Positions 54,112-62,820 of a stretch of 64,000 bases of DNA are shown in pieces. Source of the stretch: Planctomycetota bacterium. GTDB taxonomy: Bacteria; Planctomycetota; UBA1135; UBA2386. The position numbers and the translations under genes were made by a program. The DNA is taken from assembly GCA_019636245.1 (NCBI GenBank), contig JAHBXX010000024.1:1-64000 (forward strand), given 5' to 3'. The notes under the pieces were generated by a model. The model saw nothing but the letters and a program-made list of their open reading frames with translations. It did no database searches and had not been told where the DNA came from. The first letter of the stretch is position 1; each line of letters opens with the position of its first letter.

Positions 54112-55523
54112 TACCGCACGAACCCGACCGGCACGTCGACGACGCTGCGCTCGCGCATCAGCGCCTCGATCGCGTCCGGCGCCGACGGCAGGTGCCCGGA
54201 CAGGTTCTCGTGCCCGTCGGCGGTCACCAGCACGGTGTCCTCGATCCGGCAGCCCATGCCCTGGTTGCGCAGGTAGGCGCCCGGTTCGACCGTGATCACC
54301 ATGCCGGGCTCGAGCACGTCGACCGATGGATCGTGCACCGCCAGCCCGACGTGGTGGCACGGCCCGTGGTCGCTGCGGTAGCCGCGCTCGCGCAACAGCC
54401 GCGCGCACTTGCCGCCGAGCGCGCTGAGCCGCGCGCCGGGCTTCACGTCGGCGAGCAGCGCCTGCTGGATCTCGTGCACGTCCTGCACCAGCTTGCGCTG
54501 CGCGTCCGTGAAGCGGCCCGAAGCCGGGAACGTGCGCGTCACGTCGCTGGCGTAGCCGTGCAGCACGGGCGCGTAGTCCATGACGATCAGGTCGTCCTCC
54601 TGCAGCTGCCGCGACAGGGCGCTGTAGTGCAGGATGCAGCCGTTGGGGCCGGCGCCGACGATCGCCGCGTAGGCGTCGGGCCCGGCGCCGCGCAGCGAGA
54701 ACACGTAGCGCGCGACGGCGGCGAGGTGGTACTCGTAGCGGCCGGGCCGGGCGGCGCGCATCGCCTCGGCGATGCCCTCGGCGGCGATCTGCGCCGAGCA
54801 GCGCAGCAGTTCGATCTCGCCCGGCGACTTGTGCGGCCGCAGCGGGTGCAGCACGCGCTCGAGGCTCTGCACCTCCAGGTCGGGGAAGCGCTCGCGCAGC
54901 CGGGCCACCAACGCCGCCTCGCGGCTCGGGCGGCCGTCGAAGCGGTCGCCGGCGATCGCCTTGCCCGCCTCCTCGGCCTTGCCCGGGGTGCTGCCGAGCC
55001 GCGCCGCCGGCTCGGTCAGGGTGAACAGCACCGGCCGCCGGCCCTCGCGCGGCGCCAGCAGTTCGTCGAGCAGGCCCTGCAGCCCGCGCACGTTGCCGGC
55101 CGCGGCGAAGCCGGTGCGCTGCGCGGTCGCCTCGCCCGGGGCCAGGAAGTTGCCGTCCCAGGTGGCCGCGAAGCGCGAGAACGGCGGCACCAGCAGTTCG
55201 TCGCGCGCCAGCGCGCCGGCTTCGCCGGGCACCAGCAGCAGCGCGAGGTCCGGTTCGGCTATGCCGCTGAGGTAGAGGAAGTCCTGATCCTGCACGAACG
55301 GCCCCATGTCCGCCTGCTTGCCGGCGCCGCGCACCAGCACCACCGCCTCCGGGGCGAGCGCCCGGACGCGCCGCGCCAGCTCGGCGCGCCGGGCGCGGAA
55401 CTCCTCGCCGGCGAGCGGAGCCGGCGGCGCCGGCAGCGGCGCGGGCGCAGGGGTCGGGGCCGCCTGCGCGGTCAGGGCCGCGGCGAGGAGGACGAACAGG
55501 CAGGCAGGAGCGGTGCGACGCAT
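54111..55523 (-). CDS. Exported M24 family aminopeptidase (Xaa-Pro type)
   Basis: A 470-residue metallopeptidase with signal peptide MRRTAPACLFVLLAAALTA|Q and a Pro/Ala linker. The N-terminal creatinase-like domain includes VQDQDFLYLSGIAEPDLALL. The pita-bread catalytic domain carries the five metal ligands: Asp in VMDYAPVLHGY, Asp in ASDVTRTFPASG, His in HHVGLAVHDPS, Glu in VITVEPGAYLRN and Glu in RIEDTVLVTADG. It should remove N-terminal residues next to proline, here outside the cytoplasm. Convergent with the repeat protein. Confidence 0.93.
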   Translation of the reverse strand: MRRTAPACLFVLLAAALTAQAAPTPAPAPLPAPPAPLAGEEFRARRAELARRVRALAPEAVVLVRGAGKQADMGPFVQDQDFLYLSGIAEPDLALLLVPGEAGALARDELLVPPFSRFAATWDGNFLAPGEATAQRTGFAAAGNVRGLQGLLDELLAPREGRRPVLFTLTEPAARLGSTPGKAEEAGKAIAGDRFDGRPSREAALVARLRERFPDLEVQSLERVLHPLRPHKSPGEIELLRCSAQIAAEGIAEAMRAARPGRYEYHLAAVARYVFSLRGAGPDAYAAIVGAGPNGCILHYSALSRQLQEDDLIVMDYAPVLHGYASDVTRTFPASGRFTDAQRKLVQDVHEIQQALLADVKPGARLSALGGKCARLLRERGYRSDHGPCHHVGLAVHDPSVDVLEPGMVITVEPGAYLRNQGMGCRIEDTVLVTADGHENLSGHLPSAPDAIEALMRERSVVDVPVGFVR

Positions 55524-55529
55524 GGTCGC

Positions 55530-55539
55530 ACGATACGCT
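55530..55539. promoter_or_regulatory. Overlapping divergent -10 boxes (TATCGT minus, TACGCT plus)
   Basis: ACGATACGCT contains TATCGT on the minus strand, 6 nt before the peptidase ATG, and TACGCT on the plus strand, 32 nt before the ATG at 55572. The two boxes share the central TA. Confidence 0.45.
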
Positions 55540-55571: not shown

Positions 55572-56033
55572 ATGCCCCGCTACAGCCACACGCAGTCGAG
55601 CCCGCTGGGCCCGGTGTTCGCCGTCGCCTCCGCCGCCTGCCTCGGGGGTTGGGCGTTCGCCGGCGAACCGGTGGTCCGGGCGATCTGCCTGACGATGGCC
55701 GTGGTCGGCGGCCTGTTCGCGGCGATGTTCGCGCAGCTGCGGTTCGAGGAACGCGACGACCACCTGCGCGTGCGCTTCGGGCCGCTGCCGTGGGGTGGCA
55801 CCCGGGTGCCGTATGCGCGCGTGCGGGCGGTGCGGCGGGCGCGGTCGACGGTTCTCGACGGCTGGGGCATCCACTGGTTCCCCGGCCGCGGCTGGACGTT
55901 CAACCTGTGGGGGTTCGACTGCGTCGAGGTGACGACCGACGACGGGCTCGTCCGGCTCGGCACCGACGACGCCGACGGACTGGCGCGGCACCTCGGGGAG
56001 CGCAGCGGCGCCGTGGTCGGGGCGCACGGCTAG
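55572..56033 (+). CDS. Two-helix membrane protein with bacterial PH-like domain
   Basis: A 153-residue protein. Two hydrophobic segments at about 11-50 (GPVFAVASAACLGGWAFAG; ICLTMAVVGGLFAAMFAQL) form a hairpin anchor. The rest, RFEERDDHLRVRFGPLPWGG then WGIHWFPGRGWTFNLWGFDC and LVRLGTDDADGLARHL, matches the bPH-type pattern (WGI..G..GFD.VEV...DG..LGTDD). Function is unknown. It is followed 10 nt later by an acyltransferase gene. Confidence 0.7.
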   Translation: MPRYSHTQSSPLGPVFAVASAACLGGWAFAGEPVVRAICLTMAVVGGLFAAMFAQLRFEERDDHLRVRFGPLPWGGTRVPYARVRAVRRARSTVLDGWGIHWFPGRGWTFNLWGFDCVEVTTDDGLVRLGTDDADGLARHLGERSGAVVGAHG

Positions 56034-61686: not shown

Positions 61687-62349
61687 TCAGGCGACCTCGA
61701 CCCCGAACGCGCCCCAGTAGCCGTCGGCGCCCTCGCGCCGCAGCGCCGCGGGCTCGCCGTAGCCGAACAGGCAGGCGATCGTGCGCAGGCCGGCCGCCTT
61801 CGCCGCGCGCAGGTCCTGCACGCCGTCGCCGACCATCGTGGCGCCGGCCGCCGCTCCGCCGCAGCGCTGCAGCGCCAGCCGCAGCGGGGCCGGGTCGGGC
61901 TTCCTCTGCGGCAGCGTGTCGCCGCCGACGACCACCGGCAGCAGGTCGGCGAGGCCGAGGTGGCGCACGATCGGCACCGCGAACCGTTCCGGCTTGTTGG
62001 TGACGACGGCCAGCGGGTGGGCCGCGGCGTGCAGCCGCTCGAGGTGCTCGCGCACGCCGGGGAAGGCCCGCACGTGCACGATGCACTGCGTCCGGTGGTG
62101 TTCGACGTAGGCCGCGAACGCCGCCGCGAGGGCGCGCTCGCGCGCGGCGGCGTCCGCGGGCAGCACGTCGCCGAGCGCGCGCTCGACCAGCTTGCGCGCG
62201 CCGTCGCCGATGAAGGCGCGCACGGTGGCGTCGGGCAGCGGTGCGAGGCCGTGCCGGCTGCGCACGTGGTTCGTGCTGGCGGCGAGGTCCGCCAGCGTGT
62301 CGGCGAGGGTGCCGTCGAGGTCGAACAGGAACGGAGGCGGTGCTGGCAC
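61687..62349 (-). CDS. HAD-superfamily phosphatase (phosphoglycolate phosphatase-like)
   Basis: A 220-residue HAD hydrolase. Motif I is FLFDLDGTLADT at residues 7-18, motif II AVVTNKP near 112, motif III Lys in LPQRKPDP near 146, and motif IV MVGDGVQDLRAAKAAG near 168. The cap with FIGDGARKLVERALG is typical of Gph. It would hydrolyse 2-phosphoglycolate or a sugar phosphate. GTG start, 6 nt after a TATACC box shared with the divergent lipoprotein gene. Confidence 0.9.
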   Translation of the reverse strand: MPAPPPFLFDLDGTLADTLADLAASTNHVRSRHGLAPLPDATVRAFIGDGARKLVERALGDVLPADAAARERALAAAFAAYVEHHRTQCIVHVRAFPGVREHLERLHAAAHPLAVVTNKPERFAVPIVRHLGLADLLPVVVGGDTLPQRKPDPAPLRLALQRCGGAAAGATMVGDGVQDLRAAKAAGLRTIACLFGYGEPAALRREGADGYWGAFGVEVA

Positions 62350-62355
62350 GGCGTC

Positions 62356-62363
62356 GGTATACT
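62356..62363. promoter_or_regulatory. Shared TATA core: overlapping divergent -10 boxes
   Basis: GGTATACT reads TATACT on the plus strand (10 nt before ATG 62374) and TATACC on the minus strand (6 nt before GTG 62349). The whole intergenic space is 24 bp. Confidence 0.6.
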
Positions 62364-62373
62364 CCCGCCCCCG

Positions 62374-62820
62374 ATGAAGTCCGCCGCCCGCGTCGTGCCC
62401 CTGCTGCTGTCGTTCGCCGCCTGCGGCACGATCACCGACTGGCGGGAGCTGCGTTCGGCGCCGATGAAGTACGCCGACTGCTACGACGGCCTGGTGTTCA
62501 TCGCCCAGCGGGACGGCTTCAGCGCCGATTCGCTCGCCTGCGACCGCGGGCTCGGGACCTGGCAGTCGCGCTGGCGCGAGCGGCAGATCGGCCTCGGCCG
62601 TCCCGGCCGCTACCGGTTGCGCGCCGAGGTGCTGATCGACGAGGGCTCCGACCAGGCCGGGTGGCCGATCCGCTACGTCATCGAGCAGCAGAAGGTGAAG
62701 GACCTGCGCCAGTCGCTGCAGCCCCAGGAGGGGGACTGGTCGCCCGACGGCCAGGATCGCGAGCGCGAGGCGATCCTCGGCGAGAAGCTGGTGCGACGTC
62801 TGGCGCCGAAGTCGACGTGA
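62374..62820 (+). CDS. Small lipoprotein, 148 aa
   Basis: MKSAARVVPLLLSFAAC is a lipoprotein signal with Cys17. The mature part reads GTITDWRELRSAPMKYADCY, DRGLGTWQSRWRERQIGLGR and a YRLRAEVLIDEGSDQAGWPI beta segment, ending in a charged helix. No family recognised. Transcribed from the shared divergent -10. Confidence 0.7.
   Translation: MKSAARVVPLLLSFAACGTITDWRELRSAPMKYADCYDGLVFIAQRDGFSADSLACDRGLGTWQSRWRERQIGLGRPGRYRLRAEVLIDEGSDQAGWPIRYVIEQQKVKDLRQSLQPQEGDWSPDGQDREREAILGEKLVRRLAPKST

Follow-up and report, generated by a model that had tools for sequence, protein, structure and literature searches.

A 24-bp intergenic region with a single TATA core as a probable minimal bidirectional promoter of two divergent planctomycete genes

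In a 64,000-nt stretch of a planctomycete genome (hereafter, the window), the start codons of two divergent genes are separated by a 24-bp intergenic region (GGCGTCGGTATACTCCCGCCCCCG, positions 62350-62373). An earlier note on this locus proposed that one TATA core serves the two, and the measurements on which this proposal was built are exact: the gap lies between a GTG on the minus strand (62347-62349, read from 62349) and an ATG on the plus strand (62374-62376), the hexamer TATACT (62358-62363, plus strand) ends 10 nt before the ATG, and TATACC (62361-62356, minus strand) ends 6 nt before the GTG. Together, these putative -10 elements occupy GGTATACT (62356-62363), inside the gap, and overlap by four bases, TATA. 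The plus-strand hexamer is of the form TANNNT and matches TATAAT at 5 of 6 positions. The -11A is present in both directions, whereas -7T, the second most important base of the -10 element, is present in the plus direction only. We consider it probable that this gap is a minimal bidirectional promoter, with both genes transcribed from the one TATA core.

The minus-strand gene (61687-62349) encodes a HAD_2 family phosphatase (Pfam E 3e-36) that is phosphoglycolate-phosphatase-like and scores below the NCBIfam equivalog cut-offs. The plus-strand gene (62374-62820) encodes a lipoprotein of 148 aa, with a lipobox at the N-terminus, in which Cys17 is invariant in 16 relatives; searches of Pfam and NCBIfam returned no match for this protein. 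A Foldseek search with its AlphaFold model (mean pLDDT 88.7) found the N-terminal domain of BamC at E-values of 6e-4 to 1.5e-3, with a probability of 1.00 and a TM of ~0.5, and the predicted fold is best described as BamC-N-like. This lipoprotein is restricted to the family to which the genome belongs.

The distances between the two hexamers and the start codons acquire meaning against the genome at large. The genome (G000) is metagenome-assembled, and for genome-wide counts 1.62 Mb of it was sampled by stretches, in which genes were called with a home-made codon-usage caller whose choice of starts respects neighboring genes. For 726 genes that come first in their transcription units, the distance from the end of an upstream TANNNT hexamer to the start codon peaks at 6-12 nt, with 21, 23, 18, 10, 13, 10 and 4 sites at 6, 7, 8, 9, 10, 11 and 12 nt, respectively, compared to a background of 1.36 per position at 40-140 nt upstream; for operon-internal genes, the distribution is flat, without this peak. 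GTG starts have the hexamer mostly at exactly 6 nt, as in the case of the HAD gene, and ATG starts have it at 6-8 and 10-11 nt. Moreover, across 99 such TANNNT sites, TTG is enriched 21-23 nt upstream of the hexamer, that is, at the -35 position with a 17-nt spacer, and this signal is independent because the -35 region played no part in choosing the sites. The TANNNT peak, together with the TTG signal, indicates that transcription from an adjacent -10 element, with no leader or almost none, is probably common in this genome. Both genes of the divergent pair match the genome-wide leaderless spacing. For the lipoprotein gene, TATACT at 10 nt falls within the 6-12 nt range of TANNNT; for the HAD gene, the 6-nt spacing is ideal and conserved, but the hexamer, TATACC, is not a TANNNT. 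At 5-8 nt from the start, TANNNC is enriched only 2.9-fold, compared to 11.6-fold for TANNNT, so that hexamers of this kind may work, but weakly.

The earlier note further placed the -35 element of each gene within the coding sequence of its neighbor, and this part of the proposal found no support. At a spacing of 15-19 nt, no hexamer resembling the sigma-70 -35 element was found, the best candidates in this genome matching at 2 of 6 positions in the plus direction and at 3 of 6 in the minus direction, and in the relatives the resemblance is at the level of random positions in both directions. A generic promoter scan of the sequence likewise found nothing, as expected of a scan that demands a -35 element. 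As neither direction has a -35 match, the HAD/lipoprotein gap seems to hold a -10-only promoter.

The divergent HAD/lipoprotein pair is found throughout the family, and the TATA core is kept in the intergenic region of 25 of the 30 HAD loci, although these relatives share ancestry and the conservation counts are not independent events. In the loci with a TATA core, the gap is usually 22-32 bp. On the lipoprotein side, the hexamer is nearly always TATACT, replaced by TATAGT in three relatives that keep the pair (G007, G014 and G023), and lies 8-15 nt from the start. On the HAD side, the spacing in the 24 measurable loci is 6 nt in 8, 7 nt in 8, 8 nt in 5, 9 nt in one and 10 nt in two. Among the TATA-core genomes, only G011 has -7T in the hexamer on this side, the last two bases of which vary. 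In G011 and G029, where the cores are ACTATACACT and ACGGTATGCT, respectively, TANNNT hexamers, with the key bases -11A and -7T, are present in both directions. Because TATA is its own reverse complement, its conservation alone does not prove use in the minus direction. In three loci, the two sides have come apart: in G012 (gap of 71 bp) and G023, the lipoprotein start is distant and the HAD start is still 7-8 nt from the core, and in G018, the HAD start is distant and the lipoprotein start is still 11 nt from the core (starts in G023 and G018 were assigned by reading the sequences). Such uncoupling suggests that each gene has its own tie to the core.

We weighed three other explanations of the motif. 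That it arose by chance in a compact gap and has no promoter function is highly improbable; the shortness of the motif is all that speaks for it, and its rarity and conservation speak against it. In the window, with a GC content of ~74%, TATA occurs once, at 62358-62361, in the 1.62 Mb sampled it occurs 23 times, and the probability of TATA in a simulated noncoding 24-mer is 0.002; the complete GGTATACT is present once in the window, where 0.01 occurrences are expected. Furthermore, retention of the core in the great majority of the family loci contradicts chance. Being nearly absent from this genome, TATA is useful as a promoter flag there. The 23 TATA tetramers of the sampled portion are mostly noncoding. 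We also regard as quite unlikely the possibility that GTATAC, a perfect 6-bp palindrome that is conserved in about half of the relatives, is the operator of a dimeric regulator, instead of or besides a polymerase site. In other relatives, GATATACT, CCTATACT, CTTATACT and GGTATAGT substitute for it, whereas TATACT or TATAGT stays; by eye, the gap in this genome contains no longer flanking inverted repeat, and GGTATACT occurs only four times in the 4.64-Mb genome, at least once inside a coding region. We rejected the operator on the grounds that the symmetry is not conserved among relatives.

The most serious competitor, if still an unlikely one, is a one-way promoter, in which TATACT drives the lipoprotein gene only, transcription of the HAD gene begins farther upstream, at a promoter within the lipoprotein gene that gives it an ordinary leader, and TATACC is a mere mirror of TATA. 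The lack of -7T in TATACC is consistent with this scheme, and so is the free variation of positions 5-6 of the minus-strand hexamer (CC, TC, GG, AG, GC), as predicted by selection in the plus direction only. However, a distance of 6-8 nt between the HAD start and the hexamer is maintained in 21 of 24 measurable relatives, two of which have a displaced lipoprotein start, and no Shine-Dalgarno-like motif was seen by eye at a suitable distance before the GTG, either in this genome or in the sequences of the relatives. In addition, several relatives that lack the TATA core have a separate TANNNT for the HAD gene at leaderless distance, namely, TACCCT at 7 nt in G015, TACACT at 11 nt in G013 and TACCGT at 9 nt in G029.

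Under the bidirectional reading that we favor, RNA polymerase with the housekeeping sigma factor would bind the single TATA-centered core in either orientation. From TATACT, it would produce a near-leaderless lipoprotein mRNA that should begin 0-4 nt upstream of the ATG; from TATACC, on the minus strand, the HAD mRNA would be leaderless and begin with the G of the GTG itself. By this geometry, the opposing starts are expected ~21-25 bp apart. Only one polymerase at a time could occupy the core, which would entail mutual exclusion and competition. The two directions appear to be unequal because TATACT has the key -7T, which TATACC lacks: the case for the direction toward the lipoprotein gene, expected to be the stronger one, is strong, and transcription toward the HAD gene is likely, if weaker. 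The interpretation in the earlier note is supported in part: that a single core serves both genes best accounts for the locus, the core and both spacings being conserved and the spacings matching the genome geometry, with the qualification that the directions are not equivalent.

Four further divergent pairs of this genome, among those with the shortest divergent gaps, share a single core of the form ANNNTANNNT, that is, two TANNNT hexamers overlapping by the self-complementary TA, with -11A and -7T present in both directions in all four. The probability of ANNNTANNNT in a simulated noncoding gap of the respective length is 0.002-0.004. Between ruvC and ispD (L067:3492-3518, corresponding to C45:43492-43518 of G000), the core AGTGTAAGGT is 7 and 8 nt from the starts in a gap of 25 bp; between a response regulator and an S41 peptidase (L068:14-38, corresponding to C45:60014-60038), the core AGGATACGAT is at 9 and 6 nt; and between a symporter gene and pgi, the core AGACTACCAT is at 6 and 20 nt, with GGAGG before the start on the 20-nt side. 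The fourth pair, an M24 peptidase and a hypothetical protein, lies in the window and has the core ACGATACGCT at 55530-55539, between a minus-strand start at 55523 and a plus-strand start at 55572, with TATCGT 6 nt before the start of the M24-like peptidase and TACGCT 32 nt before the plus-strand gene. All these gene names come from reading the translations, without a family search.

The ANNNTANNNT cores of the four pairs are conserved across genera. At ruvC/ispD, the A...TA...T pattern is kept in 14 genomes of the family, the gap being 25 bp in all of them except one, and the bases after TA (before or including the final T) vary among AGG, CGG, TGG, GTG, ATG, CGC and CGT. At regulator/S41, five different cores (AGGATACGAT, ACAATACGAT, ACAATACGCT, ACCATACGCT and ACTCTACGAT) occur in 8 genomes, and all retain the same pattern. 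The symporter/pgi core is identical in 10 genomes, and the M24 core is kept in four, namely, G000-G002 and G011, the last with one change. Invariant outer A and T around freely varying inner bases are the pattern that selection in both directions would predict. The ruvC/ispD and regulator/S41 cores are cleaner cases than the HAD/lipoprotein gap, and ruvC/ispD is the clearest example of what may be a doubly leaderless bidirectional promoter. Whether such promoters are recurrent in the family, each with 22-36 bp between the starts, one TA core (ANNNTANNNT or TATA) and cross-genus conservation, so that the transcription of two unrelated genes from one polymerase site is obligatorily mutually exclusive, is in our estimate an evenly balanced proposition.

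Bidirectional promoters with a shared symmetric -10 element were reportedly described by Warman and colleagues in Nat Microbiol in 2021. In promoters of this type, one -10 region is read on both strands, with opposing starts ~18-25 bp apart, 18 bp being the commonest distance and 10 and 23 bp also preferred (Warman et al. 2026, PMC12825309; Middlemiss et al. 2023, PMC10268837); only one polymerase is accommodated at once, by steric exclusion, and interference is slight when basal activity is low (Warman et al. 2026, PMC12825309). Such exclusion makes the polymerase competition that the earlier note envisaged at the HAD/lipoprotein core plausible. Most likely, the gap is a compact bidirectional promoter of this Warman/Grainger type, asymmetric and with leaderless or near-leaderless transcripts: the opposite-strand -10 hexamers overlap, and the ANNNTANNNT pairs would belong to the 23-bp class by geometry (our own derivation, assuming 7 bp from the -10 element to the start). 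The difference is that here both transcripts are expected to be leaderless or nearly so, and that the HAD/lipoprotein core shares TATA, with one strand lacking -7T. Leaderless transcription on both sides would restrict the start-to-start region to only 22-36 bp, and the gap looks like an extra-compact form of the known bacterial two-way promoters.

Leaderless expression from an adjacent TANNNT is known from Deinococcus-Thermus and Actinobacteria (Zheng et al. 2011, PMC3160421; Cortes et al. 2013, PMC3898074; Zhong et al. 2025, PMC12340547), and shares with the present case the position of TANNNT 6-12 nt before the start, the high GC content and the uninformative middle three bases. In contrast to the present case, these reports treat single genes rather than divergent pairs, and the words "divergent" and "bidirectional" are absent from the text of PMC12340547. 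For Planctomycetota, leaderless and/or RPS1 initiation has been put forward by inference only (PMC5397173), and a literature search yielded no start-site data for the phylum. The conjugation switch of pLS20 (PMC4207663) also produces two divergent transcripts from overlapping promoters, but it is regulated, with DNA looping, and there is no sign of such regulation at the HAD/lipoprotein locus. We found no description of a bidirectional promoter that is leaderless on both sides in the open-licence literature, where a search on this combination yielded one paper, on an archaeal genome; this argues for novelty only weakly.

Most of what is known about bidirectional promoters comes from start-site maps of model bacteria, and the cross-genus conservation observed here suggests that selection keeps both directions of a single core in some divergent pairs. 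If the transcripts are confirmed, a divergent promoter could hardly be smaller, a single polymerase site being flanked by start codons, and the locus would offer a clean natural test of whether two genes that are forced to exclude each other become coupled in expression or are quieted.

Across 35 genomes, the exact pattern CAY-N6-ANNNTANNNT-N6-RTG is mildly above the reversed control, and not in this family, the weakness of the signal reflecting the variation of spacing among real cores. The analysis suggests that the shared-core design extends beyond this planctomycete family. In families f5 and f7 of the order (G037, G039, G041 and G043), the exact pattern was found 21 times, compared to 6 for the reversed control.
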